Of a stretch of 64,000 nt of DNA, positions 13,801 to 50,299 are shown in pieces. Position 1 is the first letter of the stretch. Each line of letters opens with the position of its first letter. This stretch comes from Plantactinospora mayteni (lineage in GTDB: Bacteria > Actinomycetota > Actinomycetes > Mycobacteriales > Micromonosporaceae): the NCBI RefSeq assembly GCF_016862935.1, contig NZ_BONX01000023.1, positions 434,001-498,000 of the forward strand, written 5' to 3'. A program made the position numbers and the translations under genes. The notes under the pieces are model-generated. The model did no database searches. It was not told the origin of the DNA and worked only from the letters and a program-made list of their open reading frames with translations.

Positions 13801-14481
13801 TCACGAGTCCGTCGGCTGGCCGTCCTTCTCCAGCCCGTAGGCGGACCAGCCACGGTCGTCGAACCCGGCGGCCTCGGCGACCCGGGCCGACCCGAGGTTG
13901 CCGGGATCGTGCAGGTACGTCGGCACGGCGCCCTCGTCCAGCACCCGCCGGGCCGCCTGCGCCACCAGCCGGCGGGCCAGTCCCCGGCCCCGACCCGCCG
14001 GCTCGGTGCCGACGGCGATCTCGTGCCCGTAGCCGTCGTGCCGCTTGATGCCCACCCCGGCCAGGTAGCCGCCGTCGGAGTCCCGCACCACCAGCACCTC
14101 ACCGCCGAACGGCCGCAGCCACGGCGGCACCACCGGATCGCCTGCGTCGACCCACTCGCCACGGTCCGGGAGCGGCGCCGGGGCGAGCGTGTAGCGGAAC
14201 ACCGCCCGATAGCCGAGCCAGCCGGGCAGTGCCACCACGCTGGGCAGTTCGGTCAGCAGCGCCGCGATCGGCCGAGGGCCGAGCGCGCGTATGGCGGCGA
14301 CCCGGGCCGGCGGCACCGAGAGTACGATCCCGAGCGGGCTGCCGATGCCGACGACCGGATGCGGCTCACCGTCCCAGCCCGGGTGGATCCGGCGCTCGGA
14401 ACCGACCACGTCCAACGACCCTCCCGCCGGCCACTGGCCCAGCCAGGTCACCAGATGGTGGTGCAGCCGCTGGTCGAGCAT
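13801..14481 (-). CDS. GNAT-family N-acetyltransferase
   Basis: 226 aa from the ATG at 14481 (MLDQRLHHHLV). The GNAT acetyl-CoA loop is visible in the C-terminal half: EIAVGTEPAGRGRGLARRLVAQAAR contains the R/Q-x-x-G-x-G/A pattern, followed by YLHDPGNLGSARVAEAAGF. The N-terminal 100 residues have no recognised motif and may bind the acceptor. The upstream open frame overlaps a dispersed repeat and is not coding. The substrate is unknown. Confidence 0.82.
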   Translation of the reverse strand: MLDQRLHHHLVTWLGQWPAGGSLDVVGSERRIHPGWDGEPHPVVGIGSPLGIVLSVPPARVAAIRALGPRPIAALLTELPSVVALPGWLGYRAVFRYTLAPAPLPDRGEWVDAGDPVVPPWLRPFGGEVLVVRDSDGGYLAGVGIKRHDGYGHEIAVGTEPAGRGRGLARRLVAQAARRVLDEGAVPTYLHDPGNLGSARVAEAAGFDDRGWSAYGLEKDGQPTDS

Positions 14482-14927
14482 CCGCCCGCCCCCGATCAGT
14501 CTCCGGCCCTGTCGGGCCCGCCCGGACAACCCAATCTCAACGAAGATTATCAATGAACCTTTTCCACCTGAACCGCGTGGCGCTCGGGCACCGTGTCCGA
14601 CCTTAGGGTCCACCGGACCGCAAGGGGAGGTTGAAAGGTTCAATGCCAGCCGCCCCCGTCGGCGCCATGGGCGACCGGGGCGGCGGCACCGGCCGAAGTG
14701 GACAGACCCGGAGGTGGAGATTCACGGCCGTCCCCCGGTCAGCAGGCCAACCGCCCGGGACGGGCCAAAAAGGTGATCCTTAACCAAACCGGGGGTTGAG
14801 GCATCACACCGGGCGCTGCTAGCGTGCGCGGGGTACTCGAAGATCGTGGCTGCGACCCACGGTGCTCGCGACGCCAGAGCATGGCGAACAGTCGATCGTC
14901 GGCCTCCGACGGGTACGGGACGGTGTA
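14482..14927. other. intergenic region between the GNAT gene and the conservon
   Basis: This 446-bp divergent gap has no convincing gene. Its left part is A/T-rich (CAACGAAGATTATCAATG near 14540-14554), where a promoter for the GNAT gene is plausible, and it contains the dispersed palindromic repeat at 14555-14641. The right part holds AAGGTGATCCTTAACCAAACC near 14770 and presumably the cvn promoter; I cannot assign -35 and -10 boxes with confidence. Confidence 0.5.
14555..14641 (+). repeat. dispersed ~90-bp palindromic repeat, copy 1
   Basis: The terminal inverted repeats are GAACCTTTTCCACCT on the left and the complement of GAACCTTTCAACCT on the right. Internally it has CTGAACCGCGTGGCGC and ACCGCAAGGGGAGGTTG. 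The same ends and internal blocks recur at 51621-51710 and, inverted, at 51728-51818. No target-site duplication is obvious. Confidence 0.8.
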
Positions 14928-17498
14928 ATGAGCTTTCGTGCTTCGCGCCTGCGTACCAAGGTCGTCGCCGTGCTGCTCACCCTGACCGCGCTCTGGGCCT
15001 TCGGCGCGTGGGTCACCCTCCGCGACGGGTTGAACCTGGTCTGGGTGCGGACCCTGGAAGCCCAGGTGTACGCGCCGACCGAGCCACTGGTCCTGAAGCT
15101 CCAGAACGAGCGGCGGCTCTCGCTGGGCTACCTGGGCGCACCGGAGGCACCGCCCCGGGAGCAGTTGGAGACCGAGCGCCGCAAGGTACGCGCGGACGTG
15201 GCCGTCTTCCGGGCCGACGCGCAGTCCTGGTTCACGGAACTGGCGGCCCGGCCGGAACTCGAACGCCGGATCGACGAGGCGCTGGCCAAGCTCGACGGGC
15301 TGGCGGCCGTACGGGAGGCGGTCGACACCCGCCGGGTGGACCGGCAGGCCGCGGCGCAGGCGTTCACCGACGTGATCGAGACGATCTTCCGGATCTACGG
15401 CTCGCTCGGCAGTGTCGACGCCGGTGACGTCGACCGCCGGGTCGAGAGCCTGATCCGGTTCACCAAGGCACGGGAACTGGCCTCCCAGGCCGACGCGCTG
15501 CTGACCGGGGCGTACGCCGCCAACCGGATCAGCCAAGCCGAGCACGCCCGGGTGATCCAGCTGATCGGCGCCGAGCGGATGATCGCGGACGAGGCGATGG
15601 CCGAGCTGCCCCGGGCCGATCAGGACCGCTACCGTCAGGCGCTCCAGCAGGGACCCCTCGCCCGGCTGCGCGCCGTCCAGGACCAGATCGTCCAGAATGG
15701 ACGCCCGGGCGGCCGTCCGGCGGTCCCGGCGGACGAGTGGCGCGGCACCATCGACCCCGGGTTGCAGGAACTGCTCCGGTTGCAGGTCGCCGACAGCGAC
15801 GAGGTGGTCAAGGCCGCCATCCCCGGTGCGATCGGCACCATCGTCCAGATGCTGATCATGGCCATCCTCGGCCTGGTCGCCGTCGTCCTCTCGGTGAACA
15901 CCGCGCGGTCGACGGTGCGCCAGCTAGACCGGCTCCGCGAGGCCGCCCTCAAGCTCGCCAGCGAGCGGCTGCCGGACGTGGTCGGCCGGCTCGGCCGGGG
16001 TGAGACGGTCGACGTCGGCGCGGAGGCACCACCGCTGGAGGCCGGTCCGGACGAGATCGGGCAGGTGGCTCGGGCGTTCAACGTCGCCCAGGAGACCGCC
16101 GTACGGACCGCGGTGGAGCAGGCCGAGCTGCGTCGCGGCGTCCGAGACATCTTCCTCAACCTGGCCCGGCGTACCCAGGCGCTGATCCACCGCCAGCTCA
16201 CCCTGCTGGACGCGATGGAGCGCCGGGAGAACGACCCGGAGGAGTTGGAGGAGCTGTTCCGGGTAGACCACCTCGCCACCCGGATGCGGCGCAACGCGGA
16301 GAACCTGATCGTGCTCTCCGGTTCGACGCCGGGCCGGGCCTGGCGGCGGAACGTCCCGATGATCGACGTACTGCGGGGCGCGGTGGCCGAGGTCGAGGAC
16401 TACGCCCGGGTCACCGTGCTGCCGGCCGGCGCGGTGGACCTGGCCGGCCGGGCGGTCGGCGACGTGATCCACCTGATCGCGGAACTGGTCGAGAACGCGC
16501 TCTCCTTCTCTCCCCCGCACACGGCGGTGCGGGTCAGCGGTCAACTGGTCGCCAACGGCTACGCCGTGGAGATCGAGGACCGAGGGCTCGGCATGAGCGC
16601 CGAGGACCGGGCCGCCGCCAACGAGCGGATCGCCACCCCGCACGAGTTCACCCTCACCGGCGGCGCCGCCCAACTCGGCCTGTACGTGGTCAGCCGGCTC
16701 ACCGAGCGGCACGGCGTACGGGTCCGGCTGAAGGAGTCGCCGTACGGCGGCACCACGGCGGTGGTACTGCTGCCGCCGCACCTGATCACCGACCGCAGTA
16801 CGGAGGGCGAGCCGACCACCGGCTCGATGCCGGTCGAGCGGCTCGCGGCGAGCGCGATCGGCGGCAGCGTACGGCGACCGCCGGGCCGGGAAGTCGGCCG
16901 CCTGTCGGAGCGGGAGTCGGCACTCCGGTCCGGGCCGGAGCCGGGCCGCGAGCCGGGCCGCGAATCGGGCCGCGAATCGGGGCAACGCCCGGGGCGGGAG
17001 CCTGAATCGGATCCGGCGCAGGAGTCGCCCCGGAGTGCCGAGTGGGGGCTCGGAGCCGACAACCTGCTCGGCACCCCCAGCCGGCCGGCCGGCGCACCGC
17101 CGAAGCCGGACCTCGCACCGCCAGTCCCGGATCTGGCGCCGCCGACCCCGGACCTCGCAGCGCCAGCCCCGAATCTGGCGCCGCCGACCCCGGACCTCGC
17201 ACCGCCAGCCCCGAATCTGGCGCCGCCGACTCCGGATCTGGCGCCGGCGATCGGGTCGGCCTCGCTTACCCCGTCGGGGCTGCCGGTCCGGGTCCGGCAG
17301 GCGAACCTCGCCGCACCGCTGCGCGACGCTGACGGCCGGCCCGAACCCGAGCCGGCGGAGGAACCCGCCCCGCGTACTCCTGAACAGATCCGCCGGATGA
17401 TGAGTTCCTACCAATCGGGCACCCGGCGCGGACGGTCCGACGCCGCGCGCCCGCTGGACGACGGTGGCGCCACCGGGTCGGCTCCGCCCGAAGCCTGA
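14928..17498 (+). CDS. cvnA: CvnA: conservon histidine-kinase-like sensor
   Basis: 856 aa membrane sensor, first gene of a conservon. A membrane helix at about residues 12-30 is followed by a helical nitrate-sensor-like extracellular domain, a second helix at about 303-325 and a HAMP-like linker. A phosphoacceptor-like segment (LIHRQLTLLDAMER) follows, then a GHKL ATPase domain with the N box ELVENALSFS and G boxes DRGLGM and GAAQLGLYVV. The C-terminal 200 residues are disordered: a Gly-Arg-Glu repeat, then seven Pro-rich heptads. In Streptomyces, CvnA works with the roadblock, DUF742 and G-protein partners encoded next to it. The ATG at 14928 has only a weak ribosome-binding site. Confidence 0.9.
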   Translation: MSFRASRLRTKVVAVLLTLTALWAFGAWVTLRDGLNLVWVRTLEAQVYAPTEPLVLKLQNERRLSLGYLGAPEAPPREQLETERRKVRADVAVFRADAQSWFTELAARPELERRIDEALAKLDGLAAVREAVDTRRVDRQAAAQAFTDVIETIFRIYGSLGSVDAGDVDRRVESLIRFTKARELASQADALLTGAYAANRISQAEHARVIQLIGAERMIADEAMAELPRADQDRYRQALQQGPLARLRAVQDQIVQNGRPGGRPAVPADEWRGTIDPGLQELLRLQVADSDEVVKAAIPGAIGTIVQMLIMAILGLVAVVLSVNTARSTVRQLDRLREAALKLASERLPDVVGRLGRGETVDVGAEAPPLEAGPDEIGQVARAFNVAQETAVRTAVEQAELRRGVRDIFLNLARRTQALIHRQLTLLDAMERRENDPEELEELFRVDHLATRMRRNAENLIVLSGSTPGRAWRRNVPMIDVLRGAVAEVEDYARVTVLPAGAVDLAGRAVGDVIHLIAELVENALSFSPPHTAVRVSGQLVANGYAVEIEDRGLGMSAEDRAAANERIATPHEFTLTGGAAQLGLYVVSRLTERHGVRVRLKESPYGGTTAVVLLPPHLITDRSTEGEPTTGSMPVERLAASAIGGSVRRPPGREVGRLSERESALRSGPEPGREPGRESGRESGQRPGREPESDPAQESPRSAEWGLGADNLLGTPSRPAGAPPKPDLAPPVPDLAPPTPDLAAPAPNLAPPTPDLAPPAPNLAPPTPDLAPAIGSASLTPSGLPVRVRQANLAAPLRDADGRPEPEPAEEPAPRTPEQIRRMMSSYQSGTRRGRSDAARPLDDGGATGSAPPEA
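17103..17249 (+). repeat. 21-bp tandem repeat in the cvnA C-terminal coding region
   Basis: Seven near-identical 21-bp units encode the heptad xPDLAPP or xPNLAPP in the disordered tail of CvnA. Alternate units are more alike, suggesting expansion by 42-bp duplication. Copy number is likely to vary between strains. Confidence 0.85.
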
Positions 17499-40067: not shown

Positions 40068-40607
40068 TCAGCGGATGCCCGTCGATGCTGGTTCGACCAG
40101 GGCGATGATGTCGTCGAGCATGACGACCAAGCCGCCGAGCACCGCACCGGCGACCGCCACCACCACGGCGATGCCGGCGTCAACGGGCCCGCCCGACAAC
40201 GAACCGAGAAGCCCGAGCAGGGCGACCGCGACAAGTACGACGTTACGGCCGACGTGGCGGGCGCCCAGCGGCGTCTCGGAACGGCCGAAGCACCGGCACG
40301 GTTCGCGGTTGCCTCGGGCCAGCGACATCGCGATGCCGGCGGTCATCGCCGCCAGCAAACCGACTGCCAGCCCGAACCCGAGCACGCCCGCCTGCCGGGC
40401 CGGTACCGCCAACGCGAGCACGATGGCCAGCTCGGCAGCGGCCACGGCGACCGCCGCCGGCCGGGCCAGCGCGGGCGGCAGTACGCCCATCTGCCGGACC
40501 GAGGCCACGAACTCGGTGAACGCGGTGGCTCTCCGGAGTTTCCCGGCTACCGCGATGACGAATACGACGCCGATCAACACCCGGCAACCGATGGCCAGAC
40601 TCGTCAT
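40068..40607 (-). CDS. MauE/DoxX-like redox-associated membrane protein
   Basis: 179 aa integral membrane protein with four main hydrophobic segments. It begins CRVLIGVVFVIAVAGKLRRATAFTEFVASV, the characteristic MauE-like first helix and loop. A cysteine pair, Cys104 and Cys106 in EPCRCFG, lies after helix 3, as in MauE. MauE is needed with MauD to form the disulfides of the methylamine dehydrogenase small subunit. Here there is no mau structural gene; instead the locus encodes a Cys-rich peptide, a CxxC redoxin, an exporter and a signal peptidase. It is inferred to pass electrons between the membrane and the redoxin. GGAGAAAG precedes the ATG. Confidence 0.87.
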   Translation of the reverse strand: MTSLAIGCRVLIGVVFVIAVAGKLRRATAFTEFVASVRQMGVLPPALARPAAVAVAAAELAIVLALAVPARQAGVLGFGLAVGLLAAMTAGIAMSLARGNREPCRCFGRSETPLGARHVGRNVVLVAVALLGLLGSLSGGPVDAGIAVVVAVAGAVLGGLVVMLDDIIALVEPASTGIR

Positions 40608-40620
40608 GTCTTCTTTCTCC

Positions 40621-40746
40621 TCAGCAGGGGCCGGAGGCCACGCCGACCAGGTGGGAACTCTCGCGGTAACCGCGCGTCCGGGAGTCGATGCTCTTGCGCC
40701 GCCGGGTGCAGTGGGCGATGGACCGGCTGAAGTTGTCGCCGAGCAC
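40621..40746 (-). pseudogene. in-frame fragment resembling S26 signal-peptidase box E
   Basis: In the same frame as the S26 gene, after its stop codon, 41 codons read from a GTG to a stop 13 bases before the mauE-like ATG. The translation has LGDNFSRSI, then ten extra residues (AHCTRRRKSI), then DSRTRGY and ESSHLVGVA. Without the extra residues it matches GDNxxxSxDSRxxG, box E of type I signal peptidases. The 30-bp insert is bounded by ATCG direct repeats, and third-position G/C is very high. It could be a decayed duplicate or a small translated protein; no ribosome-binding site is seen. Confidence 0.4.
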
Positions 40747-40806
40747 CGTCCCGACGCCATCCGCCCGCTCGTCCGCCGACCGACGGGACGTGGTGGAGGG
40801 CGAGGG

Positions 40807-41361
40807 TCACCGTTCACCCCGATCGACGGGCCGGTGCGCTACGTGCCGCTCGTCGGGACAGGGCACCCGCACGGGATCGGCCCGGGGTTCGGGCTTGACC
40901 GGTACGGCGGGAGCCTGGCCGTGCAGTGGTCGGAGCACCACGCCCACCACCGCGTCGGTGGGCACGTACCCGTAGAGGCGAGAGTCACCGCTGCCGTCGG
41001 GGTTGTCGCCCAACAGCACGAGCTGACCGGGGGGCACCACCGGCGAGTCGTCGATGCGGAACGGCACCGGATCACCCGCGACCGCCGCTACCCGCTTGAT
41101 GACCCGTCGGTTGGCGAGGGACTCCTCGGGGGTGACCCACTCGGGAATCGGCCGGAGTCGTTCCGGCAGGTCGACCACGACCACCTGACCGACCCGTACC
41201 CGACGGCCGGCGCGACGTCGGGCCAGCAGGCGGTCGCCGTGCTGGTAGGTCGGCACCATGCTGGGGCCACGTACGGTGACCACGAGATGGGCGCGGCGCA
41301 GCCACGCCAGCCACGCGGTGACGGCGACGACGAGCAGCACGGCCAGCGGCAGCCACCTCAT
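40807..41361 (-). CDS. S26-family signal peptidase
   Basis: 184 aa membrane-anchored serine protease with one N-terminal helix (residues 3-20). The catalytic Ser34 is in VRGPSMVPT and the general-base Lys89 is in NRRVIKRVAAVAGDPV. Box E reads LLGDNPDGSGDSRLYGYVP. The family cleaves exported proteins after AxA-type sites. Its ATG overlaps the stop of the ABC exporter gene (ATGA). The Cys-rich peptide of this locus ends its leader in SAAA, a suitable cleavage site, so this is probably its leader peptidase. The last 35 residues are Pro/Arg-rich and not conserved in appearance. Confidence 0.9.
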   Translation of the reverse strand: MRWLPLAVLLVVAVTAWLAWLRRAHLVVTVRGPSMVPTYQHGDRLLARRRAGRRVRVGQVVVVDLPERLRPIPEWVTPEESLANRRVIKRVAAVAGDPVPFRIDDSPVVPPGQLVLLGDNPDGSGDSRLYGYVPTDAVVGVVLRPLHGQAPAVPVKPEPRADPVRVPCPDERHVAHRPVDRGER

Positions 41362-43223
41362 GCCGGTGCCGCCGCGACGTAGCCCTGGGCCTGGAGGTTG
41401 AACAGCCGGGCGTAGATCCCGGACTCGGCCAGCAACGTCGGGTGGTCACCGCACTCGACGATCTGACCGTCGGAGAGCACCACGATCCGGTCCGCGTCCC
41501 GGACCGTGTTGAGGCGGTGCGAGATCAGCAGGCTGGTCCGGCCGGCGCGGTGGTCCCGGAGCCGGACATGGATCTCCGCCTCCGCCTCCGCGTCCAGTCC
41601 GGAGCTGGGTTCGTCGAGGATCAGCAGGTCCCGGTCGTCCCGCATCAACGCCCGGGCCAGGGCCAGCCGCTGCCCCTGGCCGCCGGAGAGCAGTACTCCG
41701 GTGTCGGCGTCCTCCTTGTCGATGCCCTCGAGGAACATCCGGGTCAGCATCGTGTCGTACCCCTTGGGGAGCTTGGTCAGTGTCTCGTGCACTCCGGCGC
41801 GGTGGGCAGCCGCCTCGACGCGCCGCCGGTCCCGCAGGCCGGTCAGGTCACCCAGGCCGATGTTCTCCGCCGCCGAGAGTTCGTACTCGGTGTAGTCCTG
41901 GAACACCGTGCCGATCCGCTGCCGCAGCTCGGCCGGGTCGAACTCCCGCAGGTCGACACCGTCCCAGCGGATCTCGCCCCGGCCCGGATCGTACAGCCGG
42001 CACAGCAGCTTGACCACGGTGCTCTTGCCGGAGCCGTTCAGCCCGACCAGGGCGGCGGCCCCGCCGGCGGGAATCGTGAGGTTCACGCCGCGCAGCACCC
42101 ACGGCCGGTCCGGGCCGTAGCGGAACCACACGTCCCGGAACTCGATCCCCACGGTCAGCGCGGGTACCGGTGTGGGCGCCGCCGGAACCGGCAGGTCGGG
42201 TTCGACCGTGGTCGCCACGTGGTAGTGGTCCAGCATCATCAGCGCGTGGTGGGCGGCGCCGAACTGGCTCACGATCCCGGAGAGGCCACCCTGGACCCCG
42301 GCGACCGCGGCCACGAAGACCGTGACGTCCCCCACGCTGAGCTGGCCGGAGCGGCTCGCCATGACCGCCCAGACCAGCCCTCCGCCGGCGGTCACCGCCC
42401 CGAGGAGGGCGAGGAGGGTCTGGATCTTCAGATCTTTCCGGTCGACGGCCCGGCTGTCGGTGTTGGCGGAGTGCAGTTCGTGGAGCATCCGGTCCCGGAA
42501 GAACACGCCCAGCCCGAAGAGCCGGATCTCCTTCGCTCCTCGGGGCTCGCTGAGCAGGTTGGCGTAGAAGTACTGCCGGCGTCCGGCGTACCCGACCCGC
42601 CACATCGTCGCGGTGCGGAGCCGGCTCAGCAGGATCTCCGCCCGGAGGGTGGGAACCGCGGCCACCGCGACGGCCACGACCAGCCAGGGATTCATCAGCC
42701 ACAGGGTGGCCAGGAAGCCGACGGCGGTCAGGGCGTTCCGCCCGATGCCGGTCGCGTTGGTCAGCAGGTCCCCCGGGCCGGTGCCGCCGGCCTGCTGTGC
42801 GAGCTGGAGCCGGGTGTGGAACGTCGGGTCCTCCAGCTTCGCGAGACCGCGCAACCGCTCGTTGACCGCGCGGTAGAGCCGGTCCACCGCGTGCACCCGT
42901 ACCCGGCGGCCCAGTTCCGCCTCGGCGTAGCGGATCAGGCGGGGCAGAATCACCACGGCGATCCCGGCGGCGGCCAGGGCCACGGTCAGCCAGACCAGCA
43001 CCGCTTCGGCCCGGCTCAGGATCAGACCGTCGAGGACCAGCCGGGTGAGCCAGGCGACCGCCACGGGCATCAGCCCGGTCGCGACGGCCAGCGCGAGCAG
43101 CCCGACGAGTATCCACGGAGCCGCGCGCAGCGCCAGGGCGGCGGCGGTCCGGGCGTGGCCGACCATCACCCGGAAGGTGATCCGCTCCGTAGTACCTCCC
43201 GGGCCACCGGGGAGGCCGATCAT
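41358..43223 (-). CDS. ABC exporter (fused transmembrane and ATPase domains)
   Basis: 621 aa half-transporter. Six membrane helices lie in about residues 30-320, then the ATPase domain with Walker A GLNGSGKST, signature LSGGQGQR and Walker B LLILDEPSSGLD, and the H-loop ISHRLNTV. It has no N-terminal C39 peptidase domain, so leader removal must be done by another protease, consistent with the adjacent S26 enzyme. Both ends overlap neighbours by ATGA. It most likely exports the Cys-rich peptide encoded upstream. The ATG at 43223 follows the redoxin stop directly; a longer open frame from 43295 is unlikely. Confidence 0.92.
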   Translation of the reverse strand: MIGLPGGPGGTTERITFRVMVGHARTAAALALRAAPWILVGLLALAVATGLMPVAVAWLTRLVLDGLILSRAEAVLVWLTVALAAAGIAVVILPRLIRYAEAELGRRVRVHAVDRLYRAVNERLRGLAKLEDPTFHTRLQLAQQAGGTGPGDLLTNATGIGRNALTAVGFLATLWLMNPWLVVAVAVAAVPTLRAEILLSRLRTATMWRVGYAGRRQYFYANLLSEPRGAKEIRLFGLGVFFRDRMLHELHSANTDSRAVDRKDLKIQTLLALLGAVTAGGGLVWAVMASRSGQLSVGDVTVFVAAVAGVQGGLSGIVSQFGAAHHALMMLDHYHVATTVEPDLPVPAAPTPVPALTVGIEFRDVWFRYGPDRPWVLRGVNLTIPAGGAAALVGLNGSGKSTVVKLLCRLYDPGRGEIRWDGVDLREFDPAELRQRIGTVFQDYTEYELSAAENIGLGDLTGLRDRRRVEAAAHRAGVHETLTKLPKGYDTMLTRMFLEGIDKEDADTGVLLSGGQGQRLALARALMRDDRDLLILDEPSSGLDAEAEAEIHVRLRDHRAGRTSLLISHRLNTVRDADRIVVLSDGQIVECGDHPTLLAESGIYARLFNLQAQGYVAAAPA

Positions 43224-43762
43224 GCGGCGACCGGGACCGCCACCACGTCCGCGGGCCGGGTGGTCACCACCGCCCCGTGTTCGTCCAGACGGCACATCGC
43301 CGGGTAGCCGGTGACCTCGAACGCCTCGCCCACCGGGCCCTTCCGTTCCTCGACGACCACCATCGCGATCCCACGGAGCTGCTCGACCATGTCAGCGGCG
43401 TCGGCCGCCTTCTCGGCGACCACCACGGCCAGGACGTGACGCGGCCCGGCCGGCAGGGCCCGGGCCGCCTCGACGAACCGGGGGAGCCACTCGGCGCAGG
43501 ACGAACAGGTGGTGGAGAAGAAGCCGGCCATCGCGCCGTCCCGGGCCAGGTCAGCCTCGTTGACCTGGGCGCCGTCCACGGTGGTGGCCCGGAACGGGGA
43601 AGGCCGCTTGCCCACTGCGATCAGGGGCTGCGGTCGTGGCACCGCCATGGAGATGCTCAGCAACTGCTCGGAATGGTTCCGCAGCCGCCGGATCACCCCT
43701 AGCGTCAGAATCAGGTTGAGCAGCGTGACGACGATACACAGAACCACCACAGCAACAGACAT
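43220..43762 (-). CDS. membrane-anchored thioredoxin-like protein (MauD/TlpA-like)
   Basis: 180 aa. One N-terminal membrane helix (residues 4-24) is followed by a redoxin domain facing outside. The active site is Cys86-Ser-Ser-Cys89 in FFSTTCSSCAEWLPRF, and the cis-proline motif is GYPAM. The layout matches MauD, which together with MauE forms disulfides in the methylamine dehydrogenase small subunit. It is the first gene of the tightly overlapping redoxin-exporter-peptidase run, 298 bp downstream of the Cys-rich peptide gene. It is inferred to oxidise or isomerise the peptide's cysteines after export. Confidence 0.9.
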   Translation of the reverse strand: MSVAVVVLCIVVTLLNLILTLGVIRRLRNHSEQLLSISMAVPRPQPLIAVGKRPSPFRATTVDGAQVNEADLARDGAMAGFFSTTCSSCAEWLPRFVEAARALPAGPRHVLAVVVAEKAADAADMVEQLRGIAMVVVEERKGPVGEAFEVTGYPAMCRLDEHGAVVTTRPADVVAVPVAA

Positions 43763-44060
43763 GCCGACCCCGTCCTTTCCGTTCCTACCGTGTCCTACCG
43801 TGCGGACTCGTTGCCACCACGCCGTGTCGATGCTTGCCGGAGCAGCAACTCGAGAAGTGACACATATTCAGAGAGCCGATCCGTTAATACCGAACCGGCC
43901 GCCGCCAATCCTCACGAAGGATGGCAGCAGCCGGCCAATCGATACGGTGACTCGATTCGGCGTACGCCTTAACGTTTGCTGACCCACCGCTGTCGCCAGC
44001 ACGCAAGTCCCGGACGTTCCTTAGTCCAGGCAACGACGTACGCCAGCGATTCAGGAGCTA

Positions 44061-44261
44061 CTAGTGGCAGCCGGTGCACTCGATGATCTGGGCGCTGTTC
44101 GCGCAGTAGCAGTCGCGGTGCAGGCCACCGCCGCAGGAGGGGTAGTAGTAGCAGGGACCCGTGTACGGGTACGGGCCACAGGGGCAGCTCGCCGCCGCAC
44201 TGGTGGTCGGCACGAACTTGCTCAGCAGTCGGTCGCCGAGCATCTCGAGTTTCTCGAACAT
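44061..44261 (-). CDS. Cys-rich secreted peptide precursor (8 cysteines)
   Basis: 66 aa. The ATG at 44261 follows AAAGGGGAG by about three bases; an in-frame ATG at 44276 is less well placed. Residues 1-24 form a charged, amphipathic leader (LEMLGDRLLSKFVPTTSAAA) with no long hydrophobic core. The core (from Ser25) has cysteines at 26, 28, 37, 43, 51, 53, 62 and 65, and is rich in Tyr, Gly and Pro. The even cysteine number would allow four disulfides. The same-strand neighbours encode a CxxC redoxin, exporter, AxA-type signal peptidase and MauE-like protein. No lanthionine, radical-SAM or YcaO enzyme is nearby, so disulfides are the likeliest modification. I do not recognise a named family. 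Confidence 0.8.
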   Translation of the reverse strand: MFEKLEMLGDRLLSKFVPTTSAAASCPCGPYPYTGPCYYYPSCGGGLHRDCYCANSAQIIECTGCH

Positions 44262-44810
44262 CTGCTCCCCTTTCATCGGGGGTTGTCAGGCCCCCGCACT
44301 GACGTAGCAGCCCGTCATGAGGATCTAGACGGGAGTGAATCAGACGTTATCAGGGAACGTAGCCATCGAGCAACCTTCATGAACGCCCACCCCGCCCCCG
44401 CAACTACTGAGAGTTATTTACAACCGTCATCAGATGTTCATCATGAGTAGGAGGTTTCGGAAGTCATTCTGTATGATGCCCCGATCGGCAGCGGGCTCAC
44501 GGAGCGTGTTTGCCGGCGAGTGGTACGATCGCAACTTGCGGTCGAAGATGGAGACATTGGTCGTCCCCAGTGGACCGATTTTGTGCTGTGAACAGACTCG
44601 ACCATGGGATAGCCGCCGCGCGCCGGTCAGCTCGGGGGTGATCTCGGCCGGCGCGTCGCGAAAGGTCTGGAGAAGACGACGCGTCCGCCGTCAGCGACCG
44701 TGACGACGGAGGCGTTCGGTCGTGACGGCCACCCACTGGCGCAGCCGGATCGAGGGTGGAAGCCCAGGGCGTGCAGAGCGATACCTAGAAATCCAAGGGA
44801 TCATGGCGTC
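44262..44810. other. A/T-richer divergent intergenic region upstream of the Cys-rich peptide gene
   Basis: This 549-bp region separates the peptide gene from a divergent SUKH-like gene. Base composition is visibly less GC-rich than the rest of the window, for example GAGAGTTATTTACAACCGTC near 44409. An 89-codon open frame at 44434-44703 and a shorter one beside it have weak third-position bias and no homology I recognise. They may be remnants of a lost gene. Confidence 0.45.
44346..44373 (-). promoter_or_regulatory. candidate promoter for the Cys-rich peptide gene
   Basis: On the minus strand TTGCTC (44373-44368) and GATAAC (44351-44346) are 16 bases apart, about 85 bases upstream of the precursor start codon. 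The surrounding DNA is unusually A/T-rich. Assigned by eye only. Confidence 0.3.
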
Positions 44811-45738: not shown

Positions 45739-47184
45739 ATGTCGACCGACCTGTACGGCGTACGGGTGCTTTCCGTCGACCCGGAGGAACTCCGGATCAG
45801 GTTCAAGGTCTTCGTGGTCTATTACGACACGGCGTACCGGAGCCACGAGTCCGCGCCGGACGACGTCGGCTTCTTCTTCCATCTGCTGTGGCAGCAGGCG
45901 ATCGAGCAGCCGGAGGATTCCCGGGCCGCCTCCCTGGCGCGACTGGTGGATATGGACCACGCGCTGGACTTCGAATGGGTCGACGCCAACGCACGCCGGT
46001 TCGTGTCCCGGGTCGAGCGGGTCGCCGCCGCCAACCATCCGCCGACCGAGGAGCAGTGGGAGCGGCTGCACGACTTCTACTACGAGGACGACGGTGGCTG
46101 GAAGGACGAGGACCTGCTGGTCCAGTTCGAGTACGACGTGTGGGTCACCGACCAGCGTTGGCTGGAGCCGCTGCGTGCGGGGGACGCATGGGGGACGACG
46201 GGGTTCCCGGTCAACGCCGACACCTGGACGGCCGAGGAGTCGTCGCACATTCCGGACCTCAGCAACCCCGCACAGGTGTTACACCCGTTCCGCACCGCCA
46301 CCGGCGACCTCAGCTACGACCACATCAGCTCACTGGCCTTCTCCGATGACGGCAGATACCTGGCCACGTGCAGCGACCAGAACCGGGTCTGGGTCCACGA
46401 CACCGCGGACTGGACCGAGTTACTGCACACCTCCGCGGGTGAGGAGTGGATCGTGCCGCAGGTGATGTGGGTGCCGGGTGAGCACATCGTCACCGTCAAG
46501 ACCCTCCCCGACGACAACGAATTCGGCGTCCAGCCACAGTGGGCCTTCGACGTCGACGCCCGGACGGAGGTCGAGGCTCCCTTCCAGGCCGGGCTCCGGC
46601 GTTCCCACGACGGTGCCTACCGGATCGGTCCGAACGGCGCGGGCGAGGGCGGCTACGACCTGCTCCCCACCGCGCACTCGCCCCATCGCCAGGTCGCCCA
46701 TGCCGGGCAGTGGGATCCGATCCAGTGCGAGGGCTTCTCCGGGGACGGGTCCCGGCTGTTCCTCGGGGCGCAGGAGAACCTCTACGTCGTCGACCCGGCG
46801 ACCGGAGAGGTCGTCGACACCGTGCTGCCCGCCCCGGAGCGGCTGTTCGCGCTCGCCGCGAACCCCGACGGCAACTATCTCGCGGTCGGGAGCCACAGCC
46901 GGAAGCTGCACTACCTTACCGGCCGGGCGCGCGAGCAGTGCCCGTATGAGCTCTGCGTATGGCGGATGGCCGACAAGAAGATCATCATGGGACGCCAACT
47001 GACGGCGCGGCTCGAACATCTCGCCTGGTCGCCGGACGGGCGCTGGCTGGTCGTCGCCATGGAACCCACCGCCAAGAGTGACTCCCACGATGGCCAGACC
47101 GCCCTGGTCGTGTTCGCCATGGGGCCGGTCGACGATGCACCGGTGTCGCGCGCGAAACTGCGGCCAGGCCCCGAACCGGCGTGA
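45739..47184 (+). CDS. WD40-repeat-like protein
   Basis: 481 aa, ATG preceded by TGAGGAG. Residues about 1-170 form an acidic domain that I do not recognise (LYGVRVLSVDPEELRIRFKVF...). From about residue 190 the sequence has WD40-like blades: HISSLAFSDDGRYLATCSDQNRVWVHD, AGEEWIVPQVMWVPG, LFALAANPDGNYLAVGS and LEHLAWSPDGRWLVVAM. It probably acts as a protein-interaction scaffold in the cytoplasm; no signal peptide is present. It lies 235 bp after the SUKH-like gene. Confidence 0.75.
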   Translation: MSTDLYGVRVLSVDPEELRIRFKVFVVYYDTAYRSHESAPDDVGFFFHLLWQQAIEQPEDSRAASLARLVDMDHALDFEWVDANARRFVSRVERVAAANHPPTEEQWERLHDFYYEDDGGWKDEDLLVQFEYDVWVTDQRWLEPLRAGDAWGTTGFPVNADTWTAEESSHIPDLSNPAQVLHPFRTATGDLSYDHISSLAFSDDGRYLATCSDQNRVWVHDTADWTELLHTSAGEEWIVPQVMWVPGEHIVTVKTLPDDNEFGVQPQWAFDVDARTEVEAPFQAGLRRSHDGAYRIGPNGAGEGGYDLLPTAHSPHRQVAHAGQWDPIQCEGFSGDGSRLFLGAQENLYVVDPATGEVVDTVLPAPERLFALAANPDGNYLAVGSHSRKLHYLTGRAREQCPYELCVWRMADKKIIMGRQLTARLEHLAWSPDGRWLVVAMEPTAKSDSHDGQTALVVFAMGPVDDAPVSRAKLRPGPEPA

Positions 47185-48853: not shown

Positions 48854-50299
48854 ATGCGTATCCCCGTCCCGTCCGCGCCCTCCCCCGCCGTCGCCACCGC
48901 CTCCCCTGCCTCCCCAGCCGTCGCTGCCGCCTCGCCCGCCGTCGCCACCGCCTCCCCTGCCGTCGCTATCGCCTCCCCCGTCCGCTTCGCATCCTCGGCC
49001 CCCGCCCCTGCTCCGGCTGCCGTTCCGGGTGCACTGCCGGGCACGCCGTCTCGGCGAGAGTGCCGGAACGCTCCGGCCGAGCTGGCGGGGGCCGGCCAGC
49101 TCGACGTCGCCGCCGACCTGCTCGCCCTGCTCGGCGACACCGCCACCGAGCCTCGGCCCGACCCGCAGTTGGAGGCGCTGACCCTGGCCGTCGCCGCCGA
49201 CCTGCCGGTACTGCTCTGGGGTGAGCCGGGAATCGGCAAGACGGCCGTGCTGAACCAGCTCGCCTCGGCCCTCGACCTGCCGCTGACCACGGTGATCGCC
49301 AGCGTGCACGAACCGTCCGACTTCGCCGGCCTGCCCGTGGTCGGCGACGATCCGGCGGTCCAGGGCGTGCCGATGGCCCCGCCGGACTGGGCCGTACGCC
49401 TGGTCCGGGCCGGCCGGGGACTGCTCTTCCTGGACGAACTCTCCACCGCACCGCCAGCCGTGCAGGCCGCACTGCTCCGCGTGGTGCTGGAACGGCGGGT
49501 CGGGGCGCTGCGGCTCCCGCCCGGCGTACGGATCGTCGCCGCCGCCAATCCACGCTCCTCGGCCGCCGACGGCTGGGAACTGAGCCCACCGCTGGCCAAC
49601 CGCTTCGTGCATCTACAGTGGACGTACGACCACCAGGTCGTGGTCCGGGGGCTCGGCGGGACCTGGCCCCGGGCCGCGCTGCCCCGGCTCGACCCGGAGC
49701 GGCTGCCCGAGGCGGTGGCGTTCGCCCGGCGCGCGGTGTGCGAGTTCCTGACCGCCCGCCCCGGCCTCGTACACCGGCTGCCCGACAACGAGGCCCGCCG
49801 GGGCGGCCCGTGGCCGTCACCACGCAGTTGGGACATGACGCTGCGGCTGGTCGCCTTCGGCACCGCGGCCGACACCTCCCGGGAGGTGTTGTCGATGCTG
49901 GTCCGGGGCACCGTCGGCGACGGCCCGGGGCTGGAGTTGCTGGCCAGCCTGGACCGGCTGGACCTGCCGGACCCCGAGCTGCTGCTCGCCGACCCTGCCC
50001 GGGCCGACCTGCCCGAGCGGGGTGACCTGCGACAGGCCGTACTCGACGGAGTGGTCGAGGCGGTCCGGAAGCTCCCCGACCGGTCCCGCTGGGACGCGGC
50101 CTGGAAACTGCTGGTCCGGGCGCTGGAGACCGGCGCCCCGGACCTGGTGGTGGTACCCGCGAGCACGCTCGCCGCGCTCCGCCAACCCGACTGGGACCTG
50201 CCGGAGTCGATCGACCGGCTCGCCGGGGTGGTCTCGCTGACCCGGCGGGCGGACGGCGTCGCCACCCGGGTCGCCGCCACCGCCGGGAGCGGCCGATGA
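48854..50299 (+). CDS. MoxR-family AAA+ ATPase
   Basis: 481 aa, ATG preceded by AAGGTGA. Residues 1-60 are a low-complexity Ala/Ser/Pro/Val segment with repeated SPAVATA units. The AAA+ core follows with Walker A GEPGIGKT, the MoxR-type EPSDFAGLPVV loop, Walker B LLFLDELS and sensor I AAANPRSS. MoxR ATPases partner with VWA proteins to remodel or insert metal into target complexes. The gene overlaps the VWA gene by four bases. The repetitive N-terminus is unusual for the family and may be a flexible tether. Confidence 0.9.
   Translation: MRIPVPSAPSPAVATASPASPAVAAASPAVATASPAVAIASPVRFASSAPAPAPAAVPGALPGTPSRRECRNAPAELAGAGQLDVAADLLALLGDTATEPRPDPQLEALTLAVAADLPVLLWGEPGIGKTAVLNQLASALDLPLTTVIASVHEPSDFAGLPVVGDDPAVQGVPMAPPDWAVRLVRAGRGLLFLDELSTAPPAVQAALLRVVLERRVGALRLPPGVRIVAAANPRSSAADGWELSPPLANRFVHLQWTYDHQVVVRGLGGTWPRAALPRLDPERLPEAVAFARRAVCEFLTARPGLVHRLPDNEARRGGPWPSPRSWDMTLRLVAFGTAADTSREVLSMLVRGTVGDGPGLELLASLDRLDLPDPELLLADPARADLPERGDLRQAVLDGVVEAVRKLPDRSRWDAAWKLLVRALETGAPDLVVVPASTLAALRQPDWDLPESIDRLAGVVSLTRRADGVATRVAATAGSGR

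Follow-up and report, generated by a model that had tools for sequence, protein, structure and literature searches.

MauD and MauE participate in the maturation of methylamine dehydrogenase, i.e., in the formation of the disulfides of its small subunit. As a rule, type I signal peptidases and TlpA/ResA redoxins work outside, the nickel superoxide dismutase maturation protease (TIGR02754) is an S26-type enzyme with cytoplasmic action, and fulvocin C is a cysteine-rich bacterial peptide. Genome mining with decRiPPter revealed, in Streptomyces, three candidate RiPP families that contain mauE, one of them also possessing mauD; in each of these families, proposed to be RiPPs, the precursor has at least eight cysteines, and the strict filter asked for a peptidase and a regulator gene in addition to the transporter (PMC7794033). 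Furthermore, some class I lasso peptide clusters contain genes for a DoxX protein and a thioredoxin (sviE/sviF, mslE/mslF, humE/humF; PMC9266682, PMC7168211). A ΔsviF mutant still makes sviceucin, but the peptide is retained in mycelia; ΔmslE and ΔmslF mutants still make MS-271 with lower yield, and disulfide installation in RiPPs is regarded as poorly understood (PMC9266682).

The window (the whole stretch of 64,000 nucleotides of Plantactinospora mayteni DNA that was analysed) contains a minus-strand gene set in the order peptide, redoxin (RDX), ABC exporter, S26 peptidase, MauE (Table 1). A sequence-only reading had listed a 66-aa, 8-Cys peptide with a charged leader ending in SAAA, a membrane-anchored CxxC redoxin, an exporter without C39 domain, an S26 peptidase with intact Ser34/Lys89 and a MauE-like protein with a CxC motif; all these parts were confirmed at their places on the minus strand, the leader ending in VPTTSAAA and being followed by SCPC. 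The ATGA overlaps that it reported are visible in the coordinates as four-base overlaps of RDX with ABC and of ABC with S26, and 199 bases separate S26 from MauE.

Table 1. Features of the peptide locus in the window and of the MauE-thioredoxin fusions in related loci
Feature	Position	Strand	Properties
Precursor peptide gene	44061..44261	-	66 aa with stop, 8 Cys
Leader	44190..44261	-	24 aa, MFEKLEMLGDRLLSKFVPTTSAAA; AxA at end; from family alignments
Predicted mature core	44064..44189	-	42 aa, 8 Cys
RNA hairpin, peptide-redoxin intergenic	43895..43936	-	long, without T-run
RDX	43220..43762	-	N-terminal membrane anchor and ResA/TlpA-like thioredoxin domain, C86xxC89
ABC exporter	41358..43223	-	membrane domain and ATPase, 621 aa, without C39
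S26 peptidase	40807..41361	-	Ser34/Lys89, PF10502, TIGR02227
MauE-family membrane protein	40068..40607	-	five predicted TM segments, C104xC106 between TM3/TM4, PF07291
MauE-thioredoxin fusion ORFs	L177:7569-8705, L178:7493-8479, L179:7292-8245	-	three genomes, one genus

The same reading knew of no described system with this composition. This has to be corrected, as clusters combining mauE/mauD with precursors of eight or more cysteines had previously been flagged by decRiPPter (PMC7794033). The likeness is one of gene content: mauE stands beside a precursor with at least eight cysteines in both cases, and the window contains the eight-cysteine precursor, mauE, a transporter and a peptidase but not the regulator (no BTAD/SARP gene is present among the genes called at 36-50 kb of the window). 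The leader, the link between S26 and AxA, the parity of the cysteines, the topology and the fusion reported below do not appear in the passages of that account on these families, which are only flagged there (PMC7794033); apart from decRiPPter, searches in an open-access library turned up no work on this gene set. With these class I lasso clusters the locus shares, as judged from their description, a membrane protein of DoxX type and a thioredoxin protein with CxxC, combined with a disulfide-bearing ribosomal peptide; the lasso clusters additionally encode a lasso cyclase and split B proteins. With MauD/MauE it shares a protein of the MauE family PF07291 and a thioredoxin-fold partner serving a small cysteine-rich protein; here, however, a peptide takes the place of the enzyme subunit and comes with a dedicated exporter and an S26 peptidase, and nothing in the list of conserved neighbours was recognised as a methylamine dehydrogenase gene.

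Taking the evidence presented below together, we consider it probable that the genes of this locus make and secrete a disulfide-rich peptide of ribosomal origin, most likely a RiPP resembling bacteriocins; S26 would cut after AxA, RDX and MauE would act on the thiols, and the ABC protein would export the product.

The start of the peptide was set at the second in-frame ATG (a start at the ATG in frame at 44276 would lengthen it to 71 aa); it is preceded by the RBS-like stretch aaaggggagcagATG, and the same start methionine is found in the closest relatives L049, L050 and L051. All 12 comparisons (leader and core) of the window peptide with these three relatives gave a dS (0.63-2.55) above dN (0.12-0.34). 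Together with the conserved key residues of the partner proteins, this makes the locus more than a product of chance. The family leader follows the consensus ~LGDRxLxxfVPxxxAxA and has no Sec-type hydrophobic core, and the core is hypervariable and cysteine-rich. The window peptide had no match in Pfam/NCBIfam, 38 family members gave only weak matches there (E of 0.038 or worse), and the peptide profile matched no solved structure at E up to 10. The mean AlphaFold pLDDT of the peptide and of MauE (50.3 and 48.9, respectively) was too low for use, and annotators label the peptide "hypothetical protein" in the plasmid-collection records. Fulvocin C (NF033852) was considered as a relative and rejected: one of the 38 members matched it (E=0.038), the window peptide did not, and a rescan of ten of the 38 with E up to 10 was negative for it. 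The NF033852 proteins encoded in the same genome (L183, C7:140059; L184, C66:69244) are long; a CxxC stretch lies in their N-terminal part and their C-terminus is very rich in cysteine, and with this different architecture they are unrelated to the peptide family.

The gap between the peptide and RDX genes contains a hairpin. The fold of the 86 bases at 43875-43960 has z=-4.25 (0 of 200 shuffles equally stable), this region having been picked after a wider fold, that of the whole 298-base gap, which reached z=-2.0 only. The counterpart in L049 also forms a hairpin (z=-6.5), and a terminator scan detected no terminator-like site; the hairpin is a possible dosage element balancing precursor against enzymes. 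Genes for WD40-type and MoxR-like AAA ATPase proteins are located upstream of the cluster (45739-47184 and 48854-50299 of the window), with no link seen.

Searched by tblastn (E up to 0.01), the window peptide has matches in 52 of 300 Micromonosporaceae genomes. Family loci were chosen by the peptide alone (the window plus 54 of the 75 tblastn rows from other genomes), and the peptide was recovered by profile in all 55 of them; RDX is present in 45, ABC in 47, S26 in 45, MauE in 40 and all four in 39, in varying order and orientation, and in seven loci the peptide stands without any of the four. In a class-wide sample of 394 genomes, two separate searches, one using the peptide profile A2 and the other the RDX profile A1, found at least 33 and at least 27 genomes, respectively. 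Among the matches listed, 26 of the 27 RDX genomes belong to the 33 peptide genomes; at a distance limit of 5 kb, a peptide match accompanies 52 of 57 RDX places and RDX accompanies 57 of 66 peptide places, all these figures being raw counts across related genomes. The peptide profile had no match in 22,008 ORFs of reversed DNA from 91 loci. That the peptide would be conserved beside this gene set in relatives is thus borne out by the 52 of 57 RDX places and the 39 of 55 complete family loci. The five RDX places without a peptide match are one lasso cluster, L181 with a small 4-Cys ORF and three others.

The P. mayteni genome itself has three peptide sets: the one in the window, one on C45 (L044) and one on C11 (L163, no MauE in the stretch). 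Its MauE loci L043 and L046-L048 have no peptide, none of the partners and no BTAD-type regulator. The lasso cluster is also located in this genome (L045 on C53, 4769-10559) and comprises Asn synthase, PqqD-like and Transglut_core3 genes; its precursor has two cysteines and, by eye, the leader motif YERPTL, and is followed by MauE and an RDX of the window's redoxin family. Its product is perhaps a one-disulfide lasso. The L045 cyclase and B2, used as tblastn queries against the 91 loci (window included), matched L045 only. In the plasmid collection, seven records have MauE matches; in all four that were examined (three Streptomyces plasmids and one chromosome-sized Nonomuraea record) peptide, RDX, ABC, S26 and MauE are present. 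These loci were found through MauE, the L053 peptide having no match among the plasmids; the window peptide had none among phages. A Rhizobium match (L006) is a short stretch inside another frame and was judged to be due to chance. In 16 loci (L052-L054, L062-L072, L075, L096) the set adjoins the same conserved neighbours, by eye infC, rpmI, rplT, pheS and pheT, i.e., a fixed insertion place. L088 carries three tandem small cysteine-rich ORFs with a similar leader (14281-15414) and none of the four partners in the stretch.

The leader would serve, with its amphipathic character, as a handle on the 66-aa precursor, and S26 is predicted to cut after AxA just before the core, as suggested by the motif and the degree to which it is conserved and by a single natural loss. 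A22 and A24 are invariant in the A2 alignment. Among 93 distinct profile-found peptides, AxA was detected by script in 88 and, with L175 (AxA) and L209 (VxA) added by eye, in 90, a count that is partly circular since 31 of the 38 A2 rows were chosen by a pattern demanding AxA. The exceptions, L177, L178 and L179, belong to three genomes within one genus. Of the 21 class loci with a peptide, 18 contain S26 and just these three lack it; the losses of AxA and S26 in them are probably one evolutionary event. S26 is also absent nearby in 10 of the 55 family loci, whose peptides are all outside the group of AxA exceptions; as these peptides keep AxA, S26 may act there in trans. The peptidase of the window matches PF10502 (E=1.6e-19) and scores 70.8 bits with TIGR02227 (cut-off 47); with TIGR02754 it stays below the cut-off (46.7 versus 63.25 bits). 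Ser34 is kept in 46 of 47 and Lys89 in 47 of 47 homologues; these homologues, like those of RDX and MauE below, were chosen by similarity to the window proteins, with the window counted in. The proposed removal of the leader by S26 fits an AxA (or VxA) positioned directly before the core in 90 of 93 peptides. Export would be the task of the ABC protein, as known for its family; its 13 Pfam matches include no C39 peptidase.

RDX has a single hydrophobic N-terminal segment and the motif C86-S-S-C89, both cysteines of which are kept in 46 of 46 homologues; its Pfam matches (ResA, AhpC-TSA, Redoxin) are weak, and its profile matches ResA structures. The MauE protein matches PF07291 with E=6.9e-25 (88.3 bits versus a cut-off of 27), and Cys104 and Cys106 of its C104-R-C106 motif are kept in 40 of 40 homologues. 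In L177-L179 a single ORF encodes MauE followed by a thioredoxin domain, the RDX anchor being lost; the exporter of L177 appears as two ORFs. From this natural fusion, the co-conservation and the even cysteine numbers, we infer that the membrane-anchored thioredoxin and MauE may jointly act on the thiols of the core. The idea that both redox proteins belong to the set holds for the redoxin (45 of 55 loci) and less so for MauE, which is the loosest member (40 of 55) and is absent beside L050 and L051, two of the three closest relatives. The MauE of the window shares 77% identity with the L099 protein and 61% with the L092 protein, and the other parts are closest to L049-L051; by sequence, MauE looks to have been exchanged between loci.

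That disulfide formation requires the MauE/redoxin pair is conjecture, and the deletions in the lasso clusters warn against equating the pair with this reaction. Instead, the pair could keep the peptide export-competent or repair wrong pairs, the disulfides forming spontaneously. The mycelial retention of sviceucin in ΔsviF and the merely lowered yield in ΔmslE and ΔmslF (PMC9266682) would suit such a role, as would the fact that MauE is not always present in cis; however, SviE/SviF are likened to the redox pair by description only, an RDX with invariant CxxC accompanies the peptide in 45 of 55 family loci, and unaided pairing becomes harder with up to 12 cysteines per core. We regard this alternative as rather unlikely and retain thiol chemistry by the redox pair as the working model.

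An even number of cysteines follows the leader in 88 of 93 distinct peptides; so it does in 52 of 57 clusters formed at 60% identity, which remain related by descent. With at least six cysteines, 51 of 55 clusters are even compared to 339 of 486 background ORFs (0.70; P=4e-5). As cysteine-rich background ORFs also lean even, parity was tested against 0.70, and a binomial test against 0.5 (P=3e-11) was discarded as too generous. Odd members exist, e.g., L056, both peptides of L089 and L204; in L087 the script counts one cysteine too many (by eye 10, even), and the totals keep the script value. Even parity above background suggests full pairing of the cysteines and fits the disulfides originally proposed for the peptide; the window peptide would end with four. 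The CxC pairs within the core could also point to metal binding, as in a metallothionein or metallophore-like peptide, but the parity and the linkage to a CxxC/CxC redox pair make this highly improbable.

The order of events was first thought to be export, cleavage and oxidation. In this classical sequence the reduced precursor is exported, S26 clips it outside, and RDX and MauE form the disulfides outside, in line with the ordinary location of type I signal peptidases and TlpA/ResA redoxins and with the score of S26 above the TIGR02227 cut-off. The distribution of charges makes it doubtful, as it places the active sites inside. For RDX, the mean number of K/R before and after the first TM segment is 0.00 and 3.25 (after > before in 65 of 65; 65 of 67 proteins had a detectable segment). 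For S26 it is 0.15 and 2.63 (59 of the 63 proteins examined), 54 of the 59 having more after, four being equal and one opposite. The housekeeping peptidases (L185, L186) and redoxins (L195, L196, L198) of the same genome show the opposite arrangement, with K/R before the segment (by eye). In MauE, loops 1 and 3 contain ~5.3 and 5.8 K/R and loops 2 and 4 ~0.2 each, so that the loop between TM3 and TM4 carrying CxC is K/R-rich. With five TM segments this loop and the C-terminus share a side, and therefore the fusion in L177-L179 puts the thioredoxin domain, too, on the side of CxC. These patterns suggest that the active sites of RDX, MauE and S26 face the cytoplasm and that processing may precede export, the positive-inside rule being a predictor only and start codons and TM limits having been set imperfectly by script. 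We therefore judge the classical order unlikely. In the proposed alternative, the peptide would be cleaved and its thiols processed at the cytoplasmic side of the membrane, either ahead of export or in the course of it. A wider version of it, in which a MauE/thioredoxin module (sometimes fused) makes or edits disulfides and an inverted S26 finishes the cysteine-rich RiPP on the cytoplasmic face before release by ABC, is put forward tentatively; the same logic would extend to lasso peptides and might account for MauD/MauE in the case of methylamine dehydrogenase.

As to function, an antimicrobial role of the predicted peptide is favoured. A signal or developmental factor would go along with the BTAD/SARP-type regulator present in 33 of 55 family loci (the 55 including the window), 10 of 21 class loci and 2 of 4 plasmid-collection peptide loci (raw counts; two examples are BTAD/NB-ARC/TPR by Pfam) and with the fact that no immunity gene was identified. 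However, presence is patchy (a 71-aa type occurs in 12 of 121 genomes of genus g4), cores are hypervariable, tandem copies exist (L180, L165, G520), and plasmids carry the set, so that a signalling role appears distinctly less probable than an antimicrobial one. Among 14 g4 peptides, pN/pS is 0.10 in the leader and 0.45 in the core; it is 1.25 in a ten-residue loop picked after viewing the alignment.

The set thus represents a compact system in which nature provides both a MauE-thioredoxin fusion and a loss of S26 together with the AxA site. It is spread over several actinobacterial families and Streptomyces plasmids. If the inside topology is true, the reducing cytoplasm would be an unusual place for making disulfides. 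Hypothetical proteins that had been scattered become one testable family, for which the leader can be recognised, a cleavage site is likely and the presence of disulfides is predicted from parity.
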